Positions 1 to 11,291 of a stretch of DNA of 64,000 nt are shown piece by piece. The stretch is from Pseudomonas sp. B21-056. Its GTDB lineage: Bacteria; Pseudomonadota; Gammaproteobacteria; Pseudomonadales; Pseudomonadaceae. The position numbers and the translations under genes are program-made. The notes beneath the pieces are model-generated. The model was not told the origin of the DNA. It saw only the letters and a program-made list of their open reading frames with translations, and did no database searches. Every line of letters begins with the position of its first letter. Position 1 is the stretch's first letter. The DNA lies in NCBI RefSeq assembly GCF_026016325.1, contig NZ_CP087203.1, positions 2,852,001-2,916,000 on the forward strand, given 5' to 3'.

Positions 1-218
1 CTGATTTCGTCGGTTTGCTGAAGTCGGGCGCGACCCAATTGGGTGAGCAGACCGGGCAAGCCAGCGAGCTGCTGTCTGCTTATGCGTTGGGCGAAAACAT
101 TGCGCCTCACGATCTGGTCATGGCCATGGAGCAGGCGAAGCTGTCGCTGCAACTGGCTGTGGAAGTACGCAACCGTCTGGTAGATGCCTACCAGGAACTC
201 ACACGGTTGCAGATCTGA
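1..218 (+). CDS. fliE: FliE-like hook-basal body protein, 5' truncated by the window edge
   Basis: This is the C-terminal part of a FliE-type protein, which joins the MS ring to the rod of a flagellar basal body. The reading frame is open from the first full codon at position 3, so the true start lies to the left. The visible end, DLVMAMEQAKLSLQLAV then VRNRLVDAYQELTRLQI, follows the FliE C-terminal pattern of a helix ending in VRNKLVxAYQEIMxMxV. The stop is 3 bases before fliF, so it is the upstream member of the same operon. A type III secretion inner-rod protein is the alternative, but the FliE signature is much better. Confidence 0.8.
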   Translation, partial: DFVGLLKSGATQLGEQTGQASELLSAYALGENIAPHDLVMAMEQAKLSLQLAVEVRNRLVDAYQELTRLQI

Positions 219-221
219 CCC

Positions 222-1595
222 ATGGAGAATCAACCGGTGTCTTCGTTCCTCGCGGGTCGTACACGCATCTTTCTGATCGGCACCGTGCTGATTGCTGGCC
301 TGCTCGCCGCGTCGGTCTGGTGGGTATTGCGCCCGCAATACGTGGCCTTGTACCGCAATGCCGACGAAGCGTCCCAGGCTCAGATCCTGGCGACATTGAG
401 TCAGCGCCATGTGCCTTATCGGATCAATACGCAGCAGGGCGCGATCGAGGTTCTGGCCGATCACGCGGCCTCGGCGCGCATGTATCTGGCCGAGGCGGGT
501 ATTCCAACGCGAGGTGGCCCGGGGTTTGAATTGTTCGACAAGGCCGACTACGGCATGTCGGAGTTTAGTCAGAAGATCAATTACCAGCGAGCCATGGAGG
601 GAGAGTTGGCGCGCACGATCATGAGCATCTCCGAAGTGGAGTATGCCCGTGTGCACCTGACGTTCAAGAAAACCAGCCTCTACCAGCAGGCGGAAGAACC
701 GCCGAAGGCCTCGGTGATTGTGCGCCTGCGCGCCACGGGGACGTTGATGCCTCAGCGGGTCAGGGGTATCCAGCAACTGGTGGCGTCGGCGGTAGAGGGG
801 ATGACCCTTGAGCGGGTGTCAGTGCTCAATGAGGACGGGCAGGTACTCAGTGCTACCGATAGCACTGCGGCCGCTCCCGAACACTTGCAGTTGACTGCTC
901 AGGTCGAGCAAGCGTTGAAGCTCAAGGCCGAAGAGCTGTTGGCGCGTCCGCTCGGTCAGCATGGCGTCGATGTTTCGGTTCGGGTGCTGATGAACTTCGA
1001 CCGCGTCAAATCCATCAGCGAGCAACCGCTCACCAACAAAATACGTCGTGAAAAACGTACCGAGTCCACCGAAAACTCCAGCGGTGAGTCCACGAGCAAG
1101 CGCTTCCAGAACAATCGGGAAATCGATTATGAAGTGGGTAAGGCTCGTGCCGAAACCGAGCATGCGTCCGGCAAGATTGAGCGCATTACTGTCGGTGTAG
1201 TACTCAGCACCCCGGTCACGGACGCTCAACAGAAAGATATCCAGGCCTTGCTTGAAGCCGCATTGGGGCTGGACCTGAAGCGTGGCGATCGATTGGTGAT
1301 GGTGTATATCCCTGACATGCCCGTGCCGCAGGCTTCTGCTGTGGCGCAGGCATCGACAGAGCCCGCACCCGTGAGCCATGTCGAAGTCCCGGCACCCGTC
1401 AACGATGATCCCGCGTTGCCATGGACTCGCTGGCTGGGCATCGGATTAATGGTGCTCTTGGCTGTCATTCTTTTGTTCTGGGTGACAGGACGGCGCAGGA
1501 CAGTCTCTGTCCCCGCGACCGTGCCGCGACTGACGTCTGTCGAGCGTGAGCAACTGCTGGTCGATTTGCGCCGCTGGCTGTTGGAGGGGCGCTGA
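222..1595 (+). CDS. fliF: FliF-type MS-ring protein, short version
   Basis: FliF forms the inner-membrane MS ring on which the rod, export gate and rotor are built. The 457-residue product has an N-terminal membrane helix (about residues 16-36), YscJ/FliF ring-building domains (about 40-200), a FliF-specific third ring domain holding DYEVGKAR (about 310), a second membrane helix (about 402-422) and a 35-residue cytoplasmic tail. The DYEVGK block and second helix favour FliF over the secretion homologue SctJ. It is roughly 100 residues shorter than usual Pseudomonas FliF. The tail ends in REQLLVDLRRWLLEGR, which could still bind a FliG-like partner. Confidence 0.9.
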   Translation: MENQPVSSFLAGRTRIFLIGTVLIAGLLAASVWWVLRPQYVALYRNADEASQAQILATLSQRHVPYRINTQQGAIEVLADHAASARMYLAEAGIPTRGGPGFELFDKADYGMSEFSQKINYQRAMEGELARTIMSISEVEYARVHLTFKKTSLYQQAEEPPKASVIVRLRATGTLMPQRVRGIQQLVASAVEGMTLERVSVLNEDGQVLSATDSTAAAPEHLQLTAQVEQALKLKAEELLARPLGQHGVDVSVRVLMNFDRVKSISEQPLTNKIRREKRTESTENSSGESTSKRFQNNREIDYEVGKARAETEHASGKIERITVGVVLSTPVTDAQQKDIQALLEAALGLDLKRGDRLVMVYIPDMPVPQASAVAQASTEPAPVSHVEVPAPVNDDPALPWTRWLGIGLMVLLAVILLFWVTGRRRTVSVPATVPRLTSVEREQLLVDLRRWLLEGR

Positions 1596-1599
1596 CGTC

Positions 1600-2052
1600 A
1601 TGGAATTTTCAGAGCTTCGTAAAGCAGCAATCCGCCTTGCCTGTTCTCATGCCGAAGACCGTGACTGGATTCTCACGCGGCTGGAACCCGACGAGCGTCG
1701 CCAGGTTGAGGCGCTGTTGGAGGAGATCAACCTGCTGGGATTGACCAGCGATCCCTCCGTTGTCTCCGCCATGATGAGCGAATTAACGGTGGCACCGGCG
1801 ACGGTTCAGACGCCGCCCGACCACACACGGCTTAAATCCCTGCTCTCGAAAGCGACGCATCCCTTTTGGGGCGCGCTGGTACTTCAACTGGAAACACCAG
1901 CGGTACGCCGCGAAGTGCTAGGAGGGCTGGCCAACAGTGCCGATATCCGTCGATGGGACAGCAAGTTTGCCAAGCAGGTCCTGCCCCCGGCGCTGATGCG
2001 TAGTTTGAAAGCCCGGTTGGAAGCTCAGGAGGCGGGTGATGAGCGCTTATAA
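1600..2052 (+). CDS. Very short FliG-like protein
   Basis: The gene sits exactly where fliG belongs, between fliF and fliH, but encodes only about 150 residues instead of about 330. The N-terminal KAAIRLACSHAEDRDWILTR and LEPDERRQVEALLEE resemble the FliG N-terminal domain that binds the FliF tail. I see no EHPQ motif of the middle domain and no charged torque helix of the C-terminal domain that meets the stator. The ATG at 1600 follows GAGGGG at 1584-1589, and the end overlaps fliH by 14 bases, with no trace of a lost 3' part. It may be a stator-independent adaptor, comparable in place to SctK of type III secretion. Confidence 0.6.
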   Translation: MEFSELRKAAIRLACSHAEDRDWILTRLEPDERRQVEALLEEINLLGLTSDPSVVSAMMSELTVAPATVQTPPDHTRLKSLLSKATHPFWGALVLQLETPAVRREVLGGLANSADIRRWDSKFAKQVLPPALMRSLKARLEAQEAGDERL

Positions 2053-2779
2053 ACCGCCCGCGTCCTCGACGGTGTTGCGTCAGCCTTCGCAAAAACCGGG
2101 TATTCGACGTCTGCCCGGATTTGATGGCGACGTCCGAGCGAACATGCCGTTGAAGGAAGGGCGTCAACCAGATGCCAAGGCGATTCTACGAGAGACTTTC
2201 GCGCTTGAGTTTGCAGAAATCGAGCGTGAGTGCCGCGATAAAGCGATAGCGGAAGGGCTGCTGGAAGGTGGCAAACAGGCTCGTGCGCAACTGACCAAAG
2301 CCCTGGTTGAGCAGGAGCAGCAATGGCTGAAGAAGGAAGCCTCCTTGCGTGCCGCACTTGAAACGCAACGCCTTCACCTTGCTCAACTGGTCGAAGCGTT
2401 GGGCTTGCAACAGCAGCAATTGATGTCGGCCATGGAGCCCCTGGTCGGGCGACTGGCGCTGGCCGTGGTGACGCGCCTGCTGGGTCAGCATGACGACACG
2501 CACATGCTAGTTGCTGACCTGGCGAGGCGAGCGATCGATGAGTACAAATTGACCGAGCCTTTGCGCATTCGCGTCGCCCGCACCGATTATGAAGCGTTGC
2601 TTCGACTGGCACCGGATGATGCGTTGTTGCCGTCGTTTGTAGTCGATTCCCAGGCTTGCGCAGGCAGTTGTCTGATCGAGTTCGAGGGCGGCCGGCTGGA
2701 TGCGGGCGTGCACACTCAGTTGAGCAAAGCCGCGTCGGTGCTGACCGAACAAGGAGAGGGTCGTGTGGCAGGGGCTTGA
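2039..2779 (+). CDS. fliH: FliH-type regulator of the export ATPase
   Basis: FliH holds the export ATPase FliI at the C-ring and restrains it. The 246-residue product has the family layout: a variable proline-rich N-terminus, a long charged, Gln-rich helical region (about 50-130) and a compact C-terminal domain holding DLARRAIDEYKLTEPLRIRV. I chose the ATG at 2039, just after AGGAGG at 2028-2033, over the in-frame GTG one codon earlier. It overlaps both neighbours, which suggests translational coupling. Assignment rests on layout and position more than on strict motifs. Confidence 0.75.
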   Translation: MSAYKPPASSTVLRQPSQKPGIRRLPGFDGDVRANMPLKEGRQPDAKAILRETFALEFAEIERECRDKAIAEGLLEGGKQARAQLTKALVEQEQQWLKKEASLRAALETQRLHLAQLVEALGLQQQQLMSAMEPLVGRLALAVVTRLLGQHDDTHMLVADLARRAIDEYKLTEPLRIRVARTDYEALLRLAPDDALLPSFVVDSQACAGSCLIEFEGGRLDAGVHTQLSKAASVLTEQGEGRVAGA

Positions 2780-4109
2780 GAGTCGATTGCTGACACAGCT
2801 GGCCCAGACGCGCCTTTGCCGGCGCATCGGCCGTTTGAGCTCGATTCAGGGCATGGTGCTTCACGCGACCGGCCTGGACGCCCGGCTGGGTGAGTTGGTG
2901 GACATCCAGCCCGCCCAAGGCGGCGAGATTGTCGTGGCCGAAGTCGTCGGTCTACGCAGCGAATACACCTTGTTGATGCCTTACGCTCCGGTGGATGGCC
3001 TGTGCCTGGCCAGCGAAGTCCATCCCCGTGGGGCACCTTACACCGTTCCAGTGGGGGAGGGTCTGTTGGGACGTGTCCTGGATGCGACCTGTGAACCACT
3101 GGATGACCTGCCTGCCCCTGAAGGGTTGAAGCGGATGCCTCGTTTCGTGGCGCCGATCAATCCGCTGCATCGTTCGCCGATCAATACCACCTTGGTCACG
3201 GGCGTTAAGGCCGTCGATGTTTTCACGCCCCTTGGACGTGGTCAGCGGATTGGCATCTTTGCCGGCAGCGGCGTGGGCAAAAGCACCTTGCTGGGAATGA
3301 TGAGCAAGTATGCAGAAGCGGACGTGATCGTGATCGCCCTGATCGGTGAGCGCGGCCGTGAGGTAGGCGACTTCATTCGCGACAGCCTCGGGCCTGAAGG
3401 TCTTAAGAAAGCCGTGGTCATTGCTGCGGCCGCTGAGCAACCGGCCGTGCTACGGCGTCAGGCGGCCTACACCGCAACGACTATTGCCGAGTGGTTTCGG
3501 GCCCAGGGCAAGCATGTGCTGCTGATCATGGACTCGATTACCCGTTTCGCCCTGGCCCAACGTGAAATCGGACTCTCCACGGGCGAGCCGATGGGAAGCC
3601 GAGGCTACACGCCTTCGGTATTTGCCCTGTTGCCACCCTTGATGGAGCGAGCCGGTGCGTTGGAGGGGCAAGGTTCCATCACCGGGGTCTATACCGTGCT
3701 GGTCGAGGGCGACGATATGAATGAGCCGGTGGCTGACCATATGCGTGCCATTCTCGACGGGCATATCGTCCTGAGTCGCAGTGTTGCTGCGCGTGGGCAC
3801 TGGCCGGCCATCGACGTGCTGCATAGCATCAGTCGGTTGGCAGGCGCTCTGCACACCCGAGAGCAGAAAAGTCAGGTCGAGCGTCTTCGGTCGGCCCTTG
3901 GCACCTATCAGAACAGCGTGGATCTGATTGAACTGGGTGCCTATGAAAAGGGCTCTCAGCCCCTGCTGGACACAATGATCGAGTTGAAACCGGAGTTTGA
4001 CGGGTTGTTGCAGCAAACCCCCGAAGAGCATTTCCCGGCATCAAGTACCTGGAAAACCGTTCTCGAGTTGGTCCAGCGGCTGGGCAAGGGGGTGAGCAGT
4101 GCAAGATGA
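2763..4109 (+). CDS. fliI: FliI-type flagellar export ATPase
   Basis: FliI is the cytosolic hexameric ATPase that unfolds and delivers substrates to the flagellar export gate. The 448-residue product has the Walker A loop GSGVGKST (about residue 165), the Walker B region HVLLIMDSITRFALAQREIGLSTGEP (shown here in part as LLIMDSITRFALA) and the family signature PSVFALLPPLMERAG. Length and motifs are normal for FliI. The GTG start at 2763 lies a few bases after GGAGAGG and inside the end of fliH. The C-terminus overlaps fliJ. Confidence 0.93.
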   Translation: MWQGLESRLLTQLAQTRLCRRIGRLSSIQGMVLHATGLDARLGELVDIQPAQGGEIVVAEVVGLRSEYTLLMPYAPVDGLCLASEVHPRGAPYTVPVGEGLLGRVLDATCEPLDDLPAPEGLKRMPRFVAPINPLHRSPINTTLVTGVKAVDVFTPLGRGQRIGIFAGSGVGKSTLLGMMSKYAEADVIVIALIGERGREVGDFIRDSLGPEGLKKAVVIAAAAEQPAVLRRQAAYTATTIAEWFRAQGKHVLLIMDSITRFALAQREIGLSTGEPMGSRGYTPSVFALLPPLMERAGALEGQGSITGVYTVLVEGDDMNEPVADHMRAILDGHIVLSRSVAARGHWPAIDVLHSISRLAGALHTREQKSQVERLRSALGTYQNSVDLIELGAYEKGSQPLLDTMIELKPEFDGLLQQTPEEHFPASSTWKTVLELVQRLGKGVSSAR

Positions 4110-4560
4110 ACGACGCAAGTCACGACAACTGGATGCAGCGTCTCGTCTACGTGTCATGCAACGGGAGAAGGCAGAGCTCGCTTATGACCGCAGCCGTCGA
4201 GCGGTAGCACAGGCCGAGCGCCTCCTGAGTGAAGAGCAGCTTCGCTATGACAGCGTTCAGGCGAATTTCGAGCTGTTGGGGCGTATCGGCGCAATGCTCG
4301 ATCCTTCCCAGCATGAACAACGATTGCTGGCCCAGACAGCGGCCTTCCAGCGGCTTGAAGCGGCGCATAGACCCGTTGTGGAGGCGCGGCATTTGTCGCA
4401 TAGCGCCATGACCCAACTGCTCAAGTGCAAGGTTAACGAGGACCTGATCGACAAGGCCAAAGGTCGGTTGCAGGTACTGTTCGATCAGGCTGCGCATGAG
4501 CATGAAACCATCGACATTTTTGATGCGCAGCAGAGCCAGGGAGCGGGATATGGCCGTTAA
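4099..4560 (+). CDS. fliJ: FliJ-type export chaperone
   Basis: The 153-residue product is almost entirely charged alpha-helix, as expected for FliJ, the coiled-coil stalk that links the FliI hexamer to the export gate protein FlhA and recycles chaperones. It lies directly after fliI, overlapping it by 11 bases, starts with GTG, and has the usual length of about 150 residues. FliJ proteins are weakly conserved, so the call depends on the coiled coil, size and place. It overlaps the next gene by 11 bases. Confidence 0.75.
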   Translation: MQDERRKSRQLDAASRLRVMQREKAELAYDRSRRAVAQAERLLSEEQLRYDSVQANFELLGRIGAMLDPSQHEQRLLAQTAAFQRLEAAHRPVVEARHLSHSAMTQLLKCKVNEDLIDKAKGRLQVLFDQAAHEHETIDIFDAQQSQGAGYGR

Positions 4561-5323
4561 GGTTGGGGGATCGCTTTGGGCAGCGGCGGCTGATCAGCAA
4601 CGCCAACCTGTTCGCGAAGCGCAAGCCAGGGACTTTGAACGCAAGATCGGACTCGGTGATCATCCCCCCACGTCGAGCGAAAGCACAGGTCGGCAGCTAA
4701 ACGAGCAGAACCCCTCGAAGTACCGACTTCCCCATACGGAATTTTCCGAACTCGATCCAAGGCGGATCGTGCGGTCGGATTCGGGCGATGCCCCAAAGTC
4801 CAAGGCAGCAGGGACAGTGGAGCTATACGCGCTGGGTATACACGCAGGCCATCATCTTTCTTATCTGACTGATGGATTCCTGGCGGAGCAGGGCGCACGA
4901 GGCGTTATGCCGGCAGGGGCGGAGCAGAGTTCTCCAGCACTTTTGAGCTCTCTACTGATTACGTCGGCCAGTTCCTTTACGTCCAGTGAAGTCTTGATAA
5001 GGAATCCCTACGGCCAACCCGGCGAACCCGTTGGGCTCGAACCTCAAGAGGCTGGGAGTTCCGCAGGACGACAATTGTTGAGCTACCTGACATTGAAATG
5101 GCCGGACCGGCAGTTCCATTTCCTGCCTCGGGGCAAAGGCCTCGAGCTGGTTGTCCGGGACTATCAATTGTCGGCGCAAGAGCGCGATGAACTGATTGAC
5201 GAGTTATCTCGCCGAGCCTCGTCGATGCCCGAGCGTCCACAGCAGATTTGGCTCAATGGCCAGGAAGTCTGGCGCGCATCATCACTTTCGAACGATTACA
5301 CAGGTGGACATCATGGCTGTTGA
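4550..5323 (+). CDS. FliK-like hook-length control protein (by position)
   Basis: The gene occupies the fliK position between fliJ and flgD and encodes about 257 residues. The first two-thirds is low-complexity, polar and apparently disordered, as in the ruler part of FliK. The last about 75 residues are more ordered (PDRQFHFLPRGKGLELVV, then YQLSAQERDELIDELSRR) and could be the folded substrate-switch domain. I see no strong FliK motif, so the assignment is positional. The ATG at 4550 overlaps the fliJ stop (ATGGCCGTTAA); an upstream in-frame start is less likely. Confidence 0.5.
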   Translation: MAVKVGGSLWAAAADQQRQPVREAQARDFERKIGLGDHPPTSSESTGRQLNEQNPSKYRLPHTEFSELDPRRIVRSDSGDAPKSKAAGTVELYALGIHAGHHLSYLTDGFLAEQGARGVMPAGAEQSSPALLSSLLITSASSFTSSEVLIRNPYGQPGEPVGLEPQEAGSSAGRQLLSYLTLKWPDRQFHFLPRGKGLELVVRDYQLSAQERDELIDELSRRASSMPERPQQIWLNGQEVWRASSLSNDYTGGHHGC

Positions 5324-5735
5324 AGCGATTGGTAGTGAGCTGAGCACCACCACCTCGGAGTTGGCCCAGAGCCGTCTGGGACAGGAAGATTTCATCAAGT
5401 TGTTCTTGACCGAGCTGACATTCCAGGACCCGCTGGAACCCATCAACAACCGCGAGTTCCTGGCGCAGATGGCGCAATTCGCCAACCTCGAACAGACCCG
5501 GATCACCAACGAAAACACCAACAACCTGGTGTCCATGAATGCCACATCGCAGTCCCTGGGACTGCTGGGGCGTCAAGTTGAAGTCAGTACTACCACCGGT
5601 GGTTCAGTGATTGGTTCGGTGTCGGCGATTGCATTTTCGTCTACCGGCCCGGTGCTGTCCGTCAAGCAAGCCGATGGTTCAGTCCTGACGGATGTGCGTT
5701 TGTCTCAAATCAAATTGGTCAGGCAGGGGGCGTGA
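5313..5735 (+). CDS. flgD: FlgD-type hook-capping protein, short
   Basis: FlgD caps the growing hook and guides insertion of hook subunits. Residues 20-75 carry the FlgD N-terminal signature, with FIKLFLTELTFQDPLEPINN followed by REFLAQMAQFANLEQ. The C-terminal part (GLLGRQVEVSTTTGG onward) keeps only a short form of the hook-cap fold. The total of 140 residues compares with about 220 in most FlgD proteins. The ATG at 5313 lies inside the end of the fliK-like gene, with a GTGGA ribosome site just upstream. Its stop overlaps the flgE start. Confidence 0.88.
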   Translation: MAVEAIGSELSTTTSELAQSRLGQEDFIKLFLTELTFQDPLEPINNREFLAQMAQFANLEQTRITNENTNNLVSMNATSQSLGLLGRQVEVSTTTGGSVIGSVSAIAFSSTGPVLSVKQADGSVLTDVRLSQIKLVRQGA

Positions 5736-6913
5736 TGCTGCAAGCTTTCTTTAATGGAATGAGTGGCCTGTTTTCCTTCGCGAAGGGCCTGGATAACGTC
5801 TCCAACAACGTGTCCAACATGAACACGCCAGGCTATCGGGGCAGCGATACTTTCTATCGTGCCGTCAATGGACAGGACGGTCAGAGTTTCGGCTCGGGCA
5901 TTGCGGGCACGGAGGTGCGGATCAAGCCGGGCGAGAATCGTCAGACCGGAACCAACACCAATGTGGCAATCAATGGCGCGGGTTACTTCGTTGTGCGCGA
6001 TGAACATGGCGCCCTGTCGTATACCCGTGCCGGGCAATTTCAGATCGATAAGGACGGCTATCTGGTCGACACGATCAGCCAGCGTCGCGTCGCAGGCATC
6101 GACTCGGCCGGCAACCTGCGCGATATCAATATCCAGGGGCAGCGTACCCTGCCGCCGAAGGCAACCACTCGCATCGAAATGGTGGGGGCATTGGCCCGTA
6201 GCGGTGCTACGGATTCGACCCACCAGATCAGTTCGATCCAGGTGTTCGATGCCAGCGGTGGGACTCACACCTTGAGCGTCAAATTCGAGCCGCTGGCGAC
6301 GCCCGTCAATAGCTGGACCGTCACGGTATCGGATTCGAGCGGTGCGCAGTTGCAGACCGGTACCATCACGTTTGGCGCGGACGGCAGCCCCGTTGCCGGC
6401 TTCAATACCTTGTCCGTTCCGCTGACCAGCAACGGCGTGCTTCAAAACATCGTGCTGGATTTCGGTACGCCAGGAAGCTTCAATCTGGCCTCGCAGGTCG
6501 CCAGTGCCCCGAGCCATACGCTGGGCGCACGGGTCGTCGACGGCAGCGCGATCGCCGGCCTGAATACCTTTTCATTCGATGAGACGGGCATTCTCAAGTT
6601 TACCTACGCCAACGGTGAAAAACGTGACGGTAGTCAGCTGGCGCTGGCGGACTTTGCGGATGAAAGTGCATTGATCGCAGGGGCCAACTCGCTTTATCAC
6701 GCTCCCTCTTCCATGAAGGCTCAATTTGGTCGGGCTGGGGAAAAGCAGTTCGGTCGAATTCAGGGAGGGTACCTGGAGTTATCGAACGTCGATCTGGCCC
6801 AGGAGTTCGGCGACATTTTGATTATCCAGCGCGGATACCAAGCCAGCTCCAGGGTCATGACAGTTTCCAACGAGATGCTGGAGCAGTTGTACAACGGAAC
6901 GAGAGGGGGCTGA
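5735..6913 (+). CDS. flgE: FlgE-type flagellar hook protein
   Basis: This is the subunit of the hook, the curved tube exported through the basal body. The N-terminus holds the rod/hook/filament signature LDNVSNNVSNMNTPGYRG (residues about 20-37). The C-terminus holds the matching helix NVDLAQEFGDILIIQRGYQA then SNEMLEQL. The length of 392 residues suits FlgE better than the 250-260 residues of rod proteins FlgF and FlgG. The TGATG junction with flgD couples the two genes. An in-frame GTG at 5732 is a weaker alternative start. Confidence 0.87.
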   Translation: MLQAFFNGMSGLFSFAKGLDNVSNNVSNMNTPGYRGSDTFYRAVNGQDGQSFGSGIAGTEVRIKPGENRQTGTNTNVAINGAGYFVVRDEHGALSYTRAGQFQIDKDGYLVDTISQRRVAGIDSAGNLRDINIQGQRTLPPKATTRIEMVGALARSGATDSTHQISSIQVFDASGGTHTLSVKFEPLATPVNSWTVTVSDSSGAQLQTGTITFGADGSPVAGFNTLSVPLTSNGVLQNIVLDFGTPGSFNLASQVASAPSHTLGARVVDGSAIAGLNTFSFDETGILKFTYANGEKRDGSQLALADFADESALIAGANSLYHAPSSMKAQFGRAGEKQFGRIQGGYLELSNVDLAQEFGDILIIQRGYQASSRVMTVSNEMLEQLYNGTRGG

Positions 6914-6916
6914 CCG

Positions 6917-7654
6917 ATGAGGATGTTGGGTTTTGTCGGCACGACTCGCCTGCGCACTGCCTGTGATCGATTGCCTCCAGTCGTTCGGCATTGGTACGAG
7001 CAATGGTGCTTCAGTGATGGGCGCCATGCCTGTGAGGTGAGTTGTTCGGCGTTGAGCGATGCCCGTGAGGTGGCATCGAAGGAAGGATGGCTCTGTGCCA
7101 AATCAACCCCCGGAGCGATCAGCCTGGCGGGTGATTGGCGATCGATAGTATTCGGGCCTGTTTTTCATGACGTACCTGAAGATGAGAGCGCCAGATATCT
7201 GCTCCACGAAGCTCAACTGGCGTTGATCAACAACCTGCTCGAGGCCCTTGGGCAGAGCGGTGTTTCGCGCTTGGCAGCCGAACCATCCAGGCCATTTTCA
7301 GATGTGCTCAATGCTCAGGTTCTGCTGCAACTTCACGTGGGTCAGTTGACGCTGTCTTTGTTGCTGGACGCGGCATTGCTCAATGCTGAGCTTGAACAGT
7401 CAGTGCCTCGCAAGCCGCTGATCGAACGCAAGCAGGCATTGGGTAACGCCCGGGTAAAGCTATCTGTGCGTTTGCCCTTGGCGAGTCTCTCCATCGGTGA
7501 GATGAGAGACCTGCGTCCAGGGGATACCCTGCGGGCCAGCGCTTTGTTAGCTGATCCTGTCTCGTTACGAGTGGCCGACGGCCCCGTGGTGGTCAGCGGT
7601 TATTTGGCCAAACAGCACGACCAACTGGCCGTGCAGTTGATTTCCAATGAGTGA
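6917..7654 (+). CDS. Short FliM-like C-ring protein with a SpoA domain
   Basis: The gene sits where fliM belongs, ahead of fliN, but encodes 245 residues rather than about 320. The last about 80 residues (from VKLSVRLPLASLSIGEMRDL through VSGYLAKQHDQLAVQL) form a SpoA domain as in FliM, FliN and SctQ. The N-terminus lacks the EIDALL-type peptide through which FliM binds phospho-CheY, and no clear CheC-like middle domain is visible. In length it is closer to SctQ of type III secretion. It probably builds a cytoplasmic sorting or C-ring platform without chemotactic switching. Confidence 0.65.
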   Translation: MRMLGFVGTTRLRTACDRLPPVVRHWYEQWCFSDGRHACEVSCSALSDAREVASKEGWLCAKSTPGAISLAGDWRSIVFGPVFHDVPEDESARYLLHEAQLALINNLLEALGQSGVSRLAAEPSRPFSDVLNAQVLLQLHVGQLTLSLLLDAALLNAELEQSVPRKPLIERKQALGNARVKLSVRLPLASLSIGEMRDLRPGDTLRASALLADPVSLRVADGPVVVSGYLAKQHDQLAVQLISNE

Positions 7655-7669
7655 ACCAGGAGTTTGAGT

Positions 7670-7975
7670 GTGACTGCGACGGTAGATGCAATTGAGCTGG
7701 AAGAGGCCAGGGTAGTGGCCAATGATGAGATGTCGCCGCTGATCAAGCGTGACATGAACCTGATCAAGCATGTGGTCGTGGAATTGGTGGTCCAGATCGG
7801 TAACGCGTCAATGACGGTGGATGAGCTGTTCGCGCTCAAGGCCGGAGATGTCGTGAAACTGATGGAGCAGGTCCACGAACCGGCGTCCCTGTGCCTGGAT
7901 GGTAAACCGGTTGCCCGAGGCAATCTGGTGGCAGTCGACGACAATTTCGGCATTCAGTTGACGGAAATATTGTGA
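7670..7975 (+). CDS. fliN: FliN-type C-ring protein
   Basis: FliN forms the lower rim of the C-ring and helps dock the FliH-FliI export complex. The 101-residue product has the complete SpoA domain, with VELVVQIGNASMTVDELFAL, LKAGDVVKL and GNLVAVDDNFGIQLTEIL. That is the normal FliN pattern and size for a protein without a long N-terminal extension. I chose the GTG at 7670, about 7 bases after CCAGGAG, over a TTG at 7664 that is too close to the ribosome site. Its stop overlaps fliO (GTGA). Confidence 0.9.
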   Translation: MTATVDAIELEEARVVANDEMSPLIKRDMNLIKHVVVELVVQIGNASMTVDELFALKAGDVVKLMEQVHEPASLCLDGKPVARGNLVAVDDNFGIQLTEIL

Positions 7976-8319
7976 CGTCGGAAACCGTAGCCCAACCCCT
8001 GGCATTGCCGTTGCGCCAGGACGATCCGCTGTCACTGATGCTGATGATCAAGGTGATGCTGATCATGGTGTTGTTACTGGCGATCGCCTACGTAGCGATG
8101 CGTTGGTATGCCCGTCGCCATGTCGGAGCCACCGGAGCCTCCCCCGGCGCGGCTGAGCTGCAGTGTGTACGCGCATTGCGGTTATCGACCAAGACCAAGG
8201 TTTATCTGCTCAAGACAGAAACGTCGCAGGTCCTGGTCACTGAGTCGTCCAACGGAGCCACAGTGACCGTTCTGTCTCAACACGCCTCATCTTCTGCACC
8301 CTTGAAGTCTCCGATATGA
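7972..8319 (+). CDS. fliO: FliO-type export gate assembly protein
   Basis: FliO is a small membrane protein that helps FliP pentamers form during export-gate assembly. The 115-residue product has one membrane helix (about residues 20-45, LMLMIKVMLIMVLLLAIAYV) followed by a small basic cytoplasmic domain with LQCVRALRLSTKTKVYLLKT, the FliO fold. The GTG start overlaps the fliN stop and its own stop overlaps the fliP start (ATGA). The order fliN-fliO-fliP is the canonical flagellar one. Confidence 0.85.
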   Translation: MTSETVAQPLALPLRQDDPLSLMLMIKVMLIMVLLLAIAYVAMRWYARRHVGATGASPGAAELQCVRALRLSTKTKVYLLKTETSQVLVTESSNGATVTVLSQHASSSAPLKSPI

Positions 8320-9038
8320 CTCACCGCTTGTTGTTTATATGGCTGAGCTGCTTTGCCTCGTGTGCAACTGCGGCAGACGACTTCTCCGAATGGGGAAGTT
8401 TGCACATCAACCAGATCCAGTCCCCCGTCAGTATCGTTGTCTTGCTGACGGCGCTTTCTTTCCTGCCTTTCCTGGTCATTTCCCTGACGACATTCACGCG
8501 CAACATCGTGGTGTTGTCACTGACCCGGCAAGCACTGGGGTTGCAACAGACGCCGCCGAATATCGTGTTGATCGTGCTGTCGATGTTCCTGACGCTCTTT
8601 GCCATGGCTCCGACCCTGGAAAAAGCTTATGACGCTGGTATCAGGCCGTTCCTTGCAAACAAGGTGGGACTAGATGGCGCGGCGTTGCAAGGTTGGGTGC
8701 CGATCCGTGACTTCATGATCAGGCAGACCCATGAAGAGGATCTGCGTTTGGTCTATGAGTTGGCCAAGGATCCGCTGCCGCAGGAACCGGAAGGGCTGTC
8801 ACCGGTAAAGCTGATACCGGCCTTCATGTTGAGTGAGCTGAAACTAGCCTTTCAGATCGGTTTCATGATCTTCCTGCCGTTCCTGATCATCGACCTGGTC
8901 GTTGCGTCAATCTTGATGTCGTTGGGGATGATCATGGTGCCGCCCATCACCATTTCCCTGCCTTTGAAAATCATGCTGTTCCTGTTGATCGACGGTTGGG
9001 GACTGATCGCTCAGACGTTGATGCGCAATCTTGGGTAA
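8316..9038 (+). CDS. fliP: FliP-type export gate membrane protein
   Basis: FliP forms the core of the flagellar export channel. The 240-residue product begins with a signal-like segment ending CATAADD, then has the family blocks LLTALSFLPFLVISLTTFTR, ALGLQQTPPNIVLIVLSMFL and, near the end, IGFMIFLPFLIIDLVVASIL plus LGMIMVPPITISLPLK. These are hallmark FliP/SctR sequences and the length is normal. fliQ, fliR, flhB and flhA do not follow; if the system is complete they must lie to the left of the window. Confidence 0.94.
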   Translation: MTHRLLFIWLSCFASCATAADDFSEWGSLHINQIQSPVSIVVLLTALSFLPFLVISLTTFTRNIVVLSLTRQALGLQQTPPNIVLIVLSMFLTLFAMAPTLEKAYDAGIRPFLANKVGLDGAALQGWVPIRDFMIRQTHEEDLRLVYELAKDPLPQEPEGLSPVKLIPAFMLSELKLAFQIGFMIFLPFLIIDLVVASILMSLGMIMVPPITISLPLKIMLFLLIDGWGLIAQTLMRNLG

Positions 9039-9058
9039 GGCCGAAGGTGGAGCCTTCC

Positions 9059-9769
9059 ATGGCGACAGATGAAACCCCCAGGGACGGCAATGATGAGCAG
9101 GCCTTGTGGCGCACCTGGGTGGACAGTAAGACAGAGGCGGCCAGGAGTCGGCTGTTCTTCTTCTACGGCCAATGGCTTCGGATGATTGTCGGGCTTCTAT
9201 ATGCTCGTTATCCGCATCCGCTGGCGGAGTGGGGGGACTACGTGAATCTGGCTTCGATTGGCCTGTTGCAGGCAATCGACCGGTTCAACCCTGGACTGGG
9301 CACGCGTTTCCAGTCCTATGCCGAACCTTACGTAAAGGGCAACGTCCTCAAGGGGCTGTCTTGTTACGTCAGTGATCAACGTCGCTATTACCGGGAGCGG
9401 CTGGAAAGCATTTCCGGTTCACAGGAGGAGCGAGCGGAGTCCGATCTTGAACACGTGGCGAACGTCGCTATCGGCTTGGCCTTCGGCTTGTTTCTGGAGT
9501 CCGGTATCGTTGATCAGGAACCCAATGACAACAATCCGCTGAGTCTTTATGAAGTGGAGCGCGAAGGTGACACGTTGAACGAGTGCGTGAAGCTTCTTTC
9601 GGTGAACGAGCGACAGGTCATCGAGGGGCACTACCACCAGCATTTAAGCTTTACTGAGGTCAGTGAGCTGATGGGTATCTCAAAGTCGCGGGTTTCGCAG
9701 TTGCATGCTCAGGCATTGAGAAATATTCGGGCGAGCCATGAGAGGTTGATGGCGGGGGAGCGTTGGTAG
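9059..9769 (+). CDS. FliA-like (sigma-28 family) sigma factor
   Basis: The 236-residue product has sigma-70 family region 2 (about residues 40-105, with WGDYVNLASIGLLQAIDRFN) and region 4 (about 180-230, with LSFTEVSELMGISKSRVSQL). The size and layout match FliA-type sigma factors, which direct late flagellar transcription. The middle is unusual, with an acidic, hydrophobic stretch around EHVANVAIGLAFGLFLESG. The ATG at 9059 follows AAGGTGGA. As the last gene of the cluster it may be a dedicated sigma factor for genes of this apparatus rather than the housekeeping FliA. Confidence 0.75.
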   Translation: MATDETPRDGNDEQALWRTWVDSKTEAARSRLFFFYGQWLRMIVGLLYARYPHPLAEWGDYVNLASIGLLQAIDRFNPGLGTRFQSYAEPYVKGNVLKGLSCYVSDQRRYYRERLESISGSQEERAESDLEHVANVAIGLAFGLFLESGIVDQEPNDNNPLSLYEVEREGDTLNECVKLLSVNERQVIEGHYHQHLSFTEVSELMGISKSRVSQLHAQALRNIRASHERLMAGERW

Positions 9770-9889: not shown

Positions 9890-9935
9890 CCCTATGAGGT
9901 CCGACTGATTGTGCAGTTTCGTCGAGGGGTACGTC

Positions 9936-11291
9936 ATGTTTAATACAACGCTAAAAAATGAACTGATGGCCAGGACAGCCGAATTGGCCACCTATAAGGG
10001 ATTGGTCGGCGCCTTGGAACGGTCGATGGCCGTTGTCGAGTTCAGCCCCGAGGGCAAGCTGCTTCGGGCGAATGAGCATTTTCTCAGCACGATGGGTTAC
10101 CGCGCAGATCAGTTGGCCGGGCTGTCCCATCGTGATTTCTGTACCCCCGCACTCTCAGGCAGCGCCGAGTACCGTGAGTTCTGGAACCAGTTGCGTGCCG
10201 GTCGATTTGTTTCCGGCACCTTTCAGCGCGTCAGCGGACAAGGCCAGCATATCTGGCTCGAAGCCAGCTATAGCCCGGTGATGGACGAAAATGGCCGCGT
10301 GGTGAAGGTGGTCAAGTACGCACTGGACGTCACTGCCAAAGTCGCGAGCGAGGCCGAAACCCGAGGCCGGCTGGTGGCGCTCGACCGGGCCATGGCGGTG
10401 ATCGAGTTCGACCTGGGCGGCAATATCCTGACCGCAAACGATAATTTCCTGAACGTCATGAATTACTCGCTGGCGGAGCTCAAGGGCAAGCATCACCGGA
10501 TGTTTTGTGAGCCGGAACTGGTCAGTCGTTCCGAGTACAGCGATTTCTGGCGTCGTCTCAACGCCGGTGAGTTTTTCAGCGGCCAGTTCAAACGTGTCGG
10601 CAAGCACGGCAAGGTGGTCTGGCTGGAGGCGAGCTACAACCCGGTCTACGACGCTGAAGGCAAGTTGAGCAAGATCGTCAAGTTCGCTACCGACATCACC
10701 GAACGGGTGGAGAAGTTCGAGGAAGATTCACGGGGGGCGTCTCGCGCCTACCACATCTCCGCCGAGACCGAGAGAGTCGCCGAGCAGGGCGCCCAGGTGA
10801 TCCACCAGACGGCCAAGGAAATGCGCCAGATCGCCGACAACATCGGCGCCTCCGCGCGTCTGGTCGGGCAACTGGGGGCGCGCTCGGAAGAAATCACGGC
10901 AATCGTCAATACCATTCGCGGCATTGCCGAGCAGACCAACCTGCTGGCCCTGAACGCCGCCATCGAGGCGGCGCGGGCCGGTGATCAGGGCAGGGGATTC
11001 GCGGTGGTGGCCGACGAAGTCCGGCAACTGGCCGGGCGTACCAGCCGTTCGACCTCGGAGATCGCGGAGATGATCGGCATGATCCTGTCCGAAACCCGTG
11101 AAGCGGTCGCCAGCATGAACGTCACCCATGAGGGTGCGTTGCGCGGGGTGACCCTGGCGGACCAGGCCGGATCGGTGATCGTGCAGATCAGGACCGGCAC
11201 CACGGATGCACTCGAGGCGGTGAGCATGTTTGCCTCCAAGCTCGATGAGTCCGAGGTCATTCCCAAGACGGCTGTCGGTTGGGTGGGTTGA
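9936..11291 (+). CDS. BdlA-like soluble chemoreceptor (PAS-PAS-MCP signalling domain)
   Basis: The 451-residue protein has two PAS domains (about 20-140 and 142-262), each ending in the WLEASYxPV(M/Y)D pattern, and then a methyl-accepting chemotaxis signalling domain. The conserved hairpin tip is [20 protein letters not shown]. There is no membrane segment, so it is cytoplasmic. This layout and size match BdlA of P. aeruginosa (two PAS plus MCP domain), which controls biofilm dispersal. The start at 9936 follows GAGGGG; a GTG at 9909 is in frame but lacks a ribosome site. A sigma-28-like promoter lies upstream. Confidence 0.85.

Follow-up and report, generated by a model that had tools for sequence, protein, structure and literature searches.

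The 64,000-nucleotide window analysed here (G000:C1:2852001-2916000) belongs to the single-contig, 6.45 Mb genome of Pseudomonas sp. B21-056, labelled G000, and opens inside an operon of 25 flagellar-type genes, half of which by length lies left of the window. We consider it probable that this operon encodes a non-rotating type III system of flagellar lineage that exports giant polymorphic YD/RHS toxins, its sigma factor turning on a toxin and not a filament. This proposal draws on the gene content of the operon, the domains absent from its rotor proteins, a FlhA clade of its own, its co-occurrence with giant genes, and the N-terminus and upstream box that these giant genes have in common.

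Operon content and reduced rotor

The operon extends over about 18.7 kb, from fliQ at about position 2843024 (genome coordinate) to a sigma factor gene, in the order fliQ, fliR, flhB, flhA, flgF, flgG, flgA, flgH, flgI, flgB, flgC, fliE, fliF, fliG-like, fliH, fliI, fliJ, fliK, flgD, flgE, fliM-like, fliN, fliO, fliP, sigma. Its right half occupies window positions 1-9769, where all genes lie on the + strand as tightly packed, open reading frames (ORFs). A preliminary description of the window had listed flagellar genes from fliE to the sigma factor in this part; they are present, mostly as profile matches, with fliJ and fliK placed by position. It had also proposed a search further left, and the genes from fliQ to flgC were found there. 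A profile named only flhA among them; the rest were assigned by their order, by homology to relatives and by how two plasmid relatives are annotated. The export gate, rod, P and L rings and hook are all present, as judged from the FliE, FliF, FlgD, FlgE, FliP and FlhA profiles and, for the rod and rings, from order, homology and annotated relatives. The window genes are as follows (aa, amino acids):

1..218, + strand: 3′ part of fliE (TIGR00205, 3.5e-20); the gene starts 105 bases left of the window, full ORF 107 aa
222..1595, + strand: fliF, short protein of the MS (membrane/supramembrane) ring, 457 aa (TIGR00206, 4.4e-58)
1600..2052, + strand: FliG-like protein, 150 aa, FliG_N and FliG_M without FliG_C
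2036..2779, + strand: fliH (PF02108, 2.3e-07)
2763..4109, + strand: fliI, export ATPase (PF00006, ATP-synt_ab, 4.8e-86; PF18269, 4.8e-16)
4099..4560, + strand: fliJ-like, 153 aa, by position and length only, with no family match above chance
4571..5323, + strand: fliK-like, 250 aa, by position only, with no Pfam match; kept in relatives
5313..5735, + strand: flgD, hook cap (PF03963, 2e-17)
5732..6913, + strand: flgE, hook protein, 393 aa (PF22692, PF06429, PF07559)
6917..7654, + strand: FliM-like protein, 245 aa, with a single SPOA domain (PF01052, FliMN_C, 5.4e-09 only) and without PF02154
7664..7975, + strand: fliN (TIGR02480, 3.1e-19)
7972..8319, + strand: fliO (TIGR03500, 1.6e-05, under its cut-off)
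8316..9038, + strand: fliP (PF00813, 3e-71)
9059..9769, + strand: FliA/WhiG-type sigma factor (TIGR02479, 4.9e-22, under its cut-off; Sigma70_r2/r4)

For the sigma factor gene, the ATG at 9059 is the likelier start compared with the TTG at 8996, where the ORF opens. The NPTH switch site of FlhB is kept in 10 of 14 contigs and reads NPTR in G905; the site was not recovered in G054, G927 and Burkholderia ubonensis.

The preliminary description had pointed to a cut-down rotor, with a FliF of 457 aa, a FliG-like protein of 150 aa and a FliM-like protein of 245 aa. The reduction is real when set against the primary flagellum of the same genome (cluster at 1.71-1.75 Mb), which encodes a FliF of 594 aa and, as controls, a FliG of 339 aa with FliG_N, FliG_M and FliG_C and a FliM of 322 aa with PF02154 (3.2e-73) and FliMN_C. 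Genome-wide profile searches on flagellar parts covered FliG_C, Flagellin_N and FlhA/SctV, not MotA/B or flhDC. FliG_C matched once, at 1733050 in the primary cluster, and Flagellin_N twice, both times in the primary cluster at 1.71-1.72 Mb; neither matched in the operon. FliG_C is also a single copy outside the operon in all nine other genomes examined (eight operon carriers and G332). The FliM middle domain, PF02154, is missing from all eight FliM-like proteins scanned, the primary FliM being positive. The rotor profile searches that had been suggested at the outset agree with the reduction, and the cluster holds no flagellin together with full-length fliG and fliM, which the preliminary description had named as the finding contrary to its view.

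The FliG-like protein of B21-056 has no Pfam or NCBIfam match. Scanning 61 members of its family gave MgtE_N as the best match (0.0026, in 12 of 61), with FliG_N in 4 and FliG_M in 3, and the family profile had a sole match in the PDB at E ≤ 10, which was FliG (E 6.5). With a predicted structure as the query, FliG took the top rank (Foldseek/VIA), the alignment being limited to FliG residues of about 2-189; SctK was not among the matches listed, which excludes nothing. The C-terminus of the operon FliF, inspected by eye, retains a helix of the FliG-binding type. Because no FliG_C is present, nothing would be left for a stator to push, and together with the absent FliM middle domain this suggests that the machine does not rotate. 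These two absences, the lack of flagellin in the cluster and the separate FlhA clade favour the initial proposal of a secretion machine that builds a hook and has been freed from rotation.

B21-056 has three FlhA/SctV copies, belonging to the primary flagellum, the operon and an Hrp-type injectisome at 2.17 Mb. In a first FlhA tree, the 11 operon-cluster rows formed one clade (100/99), G792_b being left out as its frame was not recovered. In a second tree, with three plasmids and six outside flagella added, the 14 operon rows again formed one clade (100/99), reaching from Beta- to Gammaproteobacteria. This clade sits with the flagella and apart from the two injectisome-type rows (the Hrp copy of B21-056, and G447_b, typed by place only); its sister lacks resolution, and long branches are present. 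The Hrp-type gene set, at G000:C1:2170000-2180700, would bring the type III machines of this genome to three.

The FliG-like protein was found in 6 of 398 genus genomes, with the operon order confirmed in all six, in 3 of 293 order genomes and in 2 of 398 phylum genomes; the last two counts include B21-056, and the other two order genomes were confirmed by gene order. The match to P. mediterranea stands at 89%. These counts are low estimates, because FliG-like searches missed operons found by other means: tblastn against plasmids gave no match, although divergent operons exist on plasmids, and G793 was negative, yet its second FlhA sits inside the operon clade. A fliF search found SJZ074, GM48, P. 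uvaldensis and a Moraxellaceae metagenome-assembled genome (MAG); GM48 (L007) is identical in contig to G246, and P. uvaldensis (L008) to G112, and each was counted once.

Searching FlhA against 72,556 plasmids with tblastn placed Variovorax PDNC026 (51.6%), Undibacterium YM2 (49.9%) and Burkholderia ubonensis pMSMB2035 (48.5%) at the top, and all three carry the operon. Lower ranks were ordinary flagella (Thermomicrobium 46.6%, most listed rows about 40%). The operon order recurs in Pseudomonas, the Moraxellaceae MAG, G905/G927, G749, G1255 and G1297, all Gammaproteobacteria, and on the Undibacterium, Burkholderia and Variovorax plasmids, with minor variations such as the fliH of Undibacterium, which is located 3′ of the sigma gene; for G1255 and G1297 the order was covered from flgG or flgF to fliP. 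Since it recurs in such distant genomes, the gene order is not due to chance.

Some further features were seen around the operon. A gene for a PAS-domain methyl-accepting protein lies directly 3′ of the sigma gene, at window positions 9909-11291; it is split into two ORFs in SJZ074 (L006), and no ORF was matched there in L007 and L008. A near-palindrome, GYAACATNNTGTTGC, located 5′ of fliQ and common to B21-056, L006, L022 and L032, may be a regulator site for the operon. In the Undibacterium operon, the annotation gives flgI as two neighbouring coding sequences (CDS; L097:25291-26423).

Giant YD/RHS genes and their association with the operon

Left of the operon, B21-056 encodes two giant proteins and, next to them, a group of smaller ones (genome coordinates):

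2815819-2827938, left of the operon: giant 1, RHS/YD protein, 4039 aa
2829907-2841024, left of the operon: giant 2, RHS/YD protein, 3705 aa
2814385-2815569, minus strand, divergent from giant 1: TPR-A (tetratricopeptide repeat protein), 394 aa
2813817-2814374, minus strand: TPR-B ORF
2813446-2813817, minus strand: small protein, 123 aa

Each giant gene is followed by a small gene, and the gap between giant 2 and fliQ is about 2 kb. Giant 1 contains 22 RHS repeats (PF05593), a LysM domain and a Tox-SHH domain at residues 3935-4033 (4e-30), and its neighbour is a SUKH-1 immunity-type gene (SMI1_KNR4, 2.2e-13). A C-terminal nuclease toxin with an adjacent SUKH immunity-type gene is the pattern of toxins directed against bacteria. 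By its repeats, toxin C-terminus and immunity-type gene, giant 1 thus has the sequence features of an RHS/YD polymorphic toxin. Giant 2 has 24 RHS repeats (PF05593) and LysM; its C-terminus and neighbour gene had no family match. No PAAR or other delivery or type VI secretion system (T6SS) domain was found at E ≤ 0.01 in giants 1 and 2, the latter scanned from residue 33 onwards.

Giants of operon carriers range from about 3,700 to 12,900 aa and have the N-terminus M-V-A-I-V-x-G-x-x-L-G in common. It is also found in plasmid giants of B. ubonensis (4897 aa), Variovorax (6182 aa) and Undibacterium YM2 (12,948 aa), and it is homologous from Beta- to Gammaproteobacteria (Pseudomonas against Undibacterium/Burkholderia, 1e-21 to 1e-26). 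The YM2 gene (L100:1784-40630, 38.8 kb) is annotated as a tandem-95 repeat protein and has YD motifs.

The 398 genus genomes were searched with residues 1-169 of giant 1. Seven were positive, namely all six operon carriers and G332 (1 of 392 others), an association with a Fisher exact p of 1.3e-12 when genomes are treated as independent, though they are related. The G332 copy (G332:C16:538523, L051), a short RHS gene, lacks the first 38 residues, and its genome has no FliG-like match; this copy perhaps reflects decay of the cargo after loss of the machine. A giant gene adjoins the operon in B21-056, G112 and G296. In G246 the C-terminal part of a giant adjoins fliQ, with the N-terminus on a separate contig. 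G319 has no giant gene in the 16 kb left of fliQ and three copies on other contigs, and the operon contig of G054 is too short to judge adjacency. Outside these genomes, G749 has C-terminal giant pieces left of fliQ on a contig that begins inside one, the Pseudomonas N-terminus query giving no match genome-wide; G905 and G927 encode giant YD proteins with a related N-terminus; and no giant gene was seen at the Moraxellaceae MAG locus.

The association also holds in the reverse direction, as each of the three plasmids found by FlhA alone encodes a giant that has the common N-terminus. This N-terminus occurs in 6 of the 72,556 plasmid records, three of which are the operon plasmids. In a class sample it was matched in 14 of 369 genomes, B21-056 included: G1255 and G1297 have giant and operon on the same contig, the contigs of G1331 end before an operon could show, and G1180 and G1112 were matched only beyond residue 40.

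The smaller proteins are conserved as well. TPR-A is homologous among Pseudomonas, G905/G927, B. ubonensis and Variovorax (between-lineage E 1e-22 to 1e-39) and TPR-B among Pseudomonas, G749, G905, B. ubonensis and Variovorax (down to 2e-7); the repeats inflate these E-values, and position beside the operon or a giant gene is the stronger evidence. The small protein is homologous among Pseudomonas, B. ubonensis, Variovorax and Undibacterium (E 3e-4 to 7e-22, matching pairs only).

Promoter-like box, proposed mechanism and alternatives

The box CTAAAC-N16-G[CG]AT is found 5′ of the giant genes. The consensus of sigma28 promoters is TAAAGTTT-N11-GCCGATAA, and the box is sigma28-like, hinting that the sigma factor of the operon may read it. 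One lineage differs in its regulator: G905 and G927 have a LuxR-type gene 3′ of fliP (68% identical mutually; L037:3012-4631 and L038:10526-12148) and no sigma match. Outside this lineage the box is present in 12 of 14 giant-gene stretches, comprising 11 of 12 copies of operon carriers (the miss, in G054, is a near-match) and one of the two from Eleftheria and Undibacterium KW1 (KW1 being a near-match). Within the LuxR-type lineage it was found in 0 of 3 stretches, or 0 of 4 with L057 added. None of 24 stretches upstream of TPR, small-protein and fliQ genes contains it, so fliQ does not carry the box of the giant genes. A spacer of 20 gave one match, all other spacers from 10 to 22 gave none, and Markov shuffles yielded 0.003 matches per set. 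Among later stretches, G1297, where the sigma factor is present, and G1331 have the box; G1255 (two copies, no sigma match on the stretches covered) and nine loci with a longer N-terminus do not. A stricter form, CCTAAAC-N16-GCATA, has two perfect matches in the B21-056 genome, both 5′ of the two giant genes. Three one-mismatch matches elsewhere were discarded as chance, as a reversed control gave 12 at the same tolerance and two of the three lie inside long open frames. At the usual place of the sigma gene, after fliP, G1255 has an ORF of 1381 aa, and an ORF that by eye resembles AraC lies 4.6 kb beyond (stretch L131:14545-19444).

We hypothesize that expression of the operon would give a basal body with an MS ring, a complex of FliG_N/M, the FliM SPOA domain and FliN, a FliHI ATPase, a FlhAB-FliPQR gate, a rod and P and L rings. 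Basal body and hook would be built with no motor coupling and no filament. The sigma28-type factor, encoded by the last gene of the operon, would then transcribe the giant genes from the CTAAAC-N16-G[CG]AT promoter. The N-terminus M-V-A-I-V-x-G-x-x-L-G is probably the export signal, and the two TPR proteins and the small protein (94-155 aa) probably act as chaperones or sorters bringing the unfolded giant to FlhA. The giant would leave through rod, rings and hook in the place of flagellin, fold outside the cell and deliver its variable C-terminal toxin to other bacteria, with the neighbour gene providing immunity.

Several points weigh against this proposal. Neither secretion, nor structure, nor killing was observed; passing a protein of 12,948 aa along the channel of a hook would be extreme. 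The structure model of the FliG-like protein has moderate confidence (predicted local distance difference test, pLDDT, 66), and a second model from 61 rows brought no gain (65). Since the box was noticed first in Pseudomonas and given its final form once the Betaproteobacterial stretches had been read, its count is partly descriptive; the regulator beside fliP also varies, with a LuxR-type gene in one lineage and no recognised sigma factor in G1255. TPR-A scores better with a PEP-CTERM TPR model (6.1e-26) than with the type III chaperone model SctY (4.2e-13), both under cut-off, and for this reason its chaperone role is a guess. The other three plasmids with the giant N-terminus showed no operon on the stretches covered and were not among the 40 listed FlhA rows. 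Coverage was 42.8-75.3 and 83-132 of 135.6 kb for Undibacterium KW1, where one CDS is named FliJ family, and 16 kb on each side for one Eleftheria terrae record, the second lying outside it. Finally, eight of the 369 class genomes (G1049, G1066, G1071, G1131, G1139, G1209, G1312 and G1338) have a longer, altered N-terminus; the analysis covered stretches of six of these eight and found no operon on them. The N-terminal family thus extends beyond the operon, and its short MVAIV-like form accompanies the operon where visible. The longer giants (L116-L123, L128) come from gammaproteobacterial genomes of 1.0-2.6 Mb and may be served by another export route.

Hook, cap and rod proteins are kept, as would suit a hook-only surface appendage used for adhesion, surface sensing or as a nanotube base, with the giants merely co-regulated and either exported by another route or anchored at the hook tip. 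Export has no direct evidence, and related giants were found on stretches that showed no operon. However, giant, TPR and small-protein genes accompany the operon over Beta- and Gammaproteobacteria, the giants have a common upstream box of their own, and giants 1 and 2 showed no PAAR or other delivery domain, all of which makes such an appendage unlikely. The same machine could also be an injectisome-like weapon aimed at eukaryotes instead of bacteria. Non-flagellar type III systems are known to act on eukaryotes, and this genome has an Hrp-type injectisome as well; nevertheless, the Tox-SHH nuclease and SUKH neighbour of giant 1 follow the generally antibacterial pattern, giant 2 being uninformative, and we find a eukaryotic target quite improbable.

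The export, rod, ring and hook parts would likewise be expected of a true second flagellum borrowing flagellin and stators from the primary one. We give this very little credence, given a FliG without FliG_C, a FliM without its middle domain and a separate FlhA lineage. Short rotor genes might also mark a decaying relic of a flagellar cluster, but the ORFs are open and close-packed, and the same reduced proteins and order recur in lineages with a FlhA identity of only about 50%, so that decay is hardly conceivable.

If the toxin exporter proposed here is real, a flagellum has been stripped to an exporter on its own branch, separate from the injectisome rows in the tree, and the question of how a motility organelle becomes a weapon could be tested in living descendants. 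It would also provide an export route for giant YD/RHS proteins without T6SS domains, a test of how large a protein type III export can handle, and a case of the flagellar sigma checkpoint reused for the timing of toxin production.

Comparison with known systems

To our knowledge, no known system has this combination of features, the nearest being the flagellum, injectisomes, the second flagellum of P. fluorescens F113 and T6SS Rhs effectors. No description of such a system was found in the literature searched, most subscription papers being outside its reach. Its parts and lineage are flagellar. We lean slightly towards a third functional class of type III system, beside flagellum and injectisome, in which non-rotating flagella, of a lineage old enough to reach both Beta- and Gammaproteobacteria, export giant antibacterial YD-shell toxins through the hook under a rewired sigma relay; the term would be fair only if export is shown.

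Like the flagellum, the operon encodes an export gate, ATPase complex, MS ring, rod, P and L rings, hook, cap and a FliA-type sigma factor, and its FlhA groups with flagella and not with injectisome rows. Unlike the flagellum, it lacks FliG_C, the FliM middle domain and flagellin, and has giant YD cargo and TPR proteins instead. The pair of single-SPOA FliM and FliN presumably resembles a split SctQ. The operon differs from injectisomes in retaining the FlgB/C/F/G rod, with FlgH/I rings and FlgE hook in the role of secretin and needle, and in its FlhA branch, in a tree that Myxococcales sequences lie outside. It resembles them, including the Myxococcales intermediate of Abby and Rocha 2012 (PMC3459982), as a flagellum-derived means of protein delivery without motility.

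The second flagellum of F113 is a complete, Azotobacter-like 41 kb locus with flhDC (PMC3570484), and swimming rises on overexpression of the flhDC of this second locus. Both are second flagellar clusters in Pseudomonas of the fluorescens complex, whereas the F113 set is complete and the operon here has neither flagellin nor a full FliG; the difference from Pseudomonas second flagella anticipated in the preliminary description is borne out for this example.

T6SS Rhs/YD toxins also combine YD repeats, a variable C-terminal toxin and an immunity gene (PMC8636562). Unlike these, the giants of 3,700-12,900 aa have an N-terminus of their own, no PAAR found and a tie to a flagellar operon. For bacterial teneurin-like YD toxins, a 2026 paper notes that obvious delivery machinery is absent (PMC13018210). 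Export of an antibacterial protein by a flagellar-type apparatus has been proposed in Pectobacterium, where a bacteriocin would leave by the flagellar type III secretion system, with fliC and fliG (PMC9144310). The system there is an ordinary flagellar one, in contrast to the dedicated machine without flagellin proposed here.

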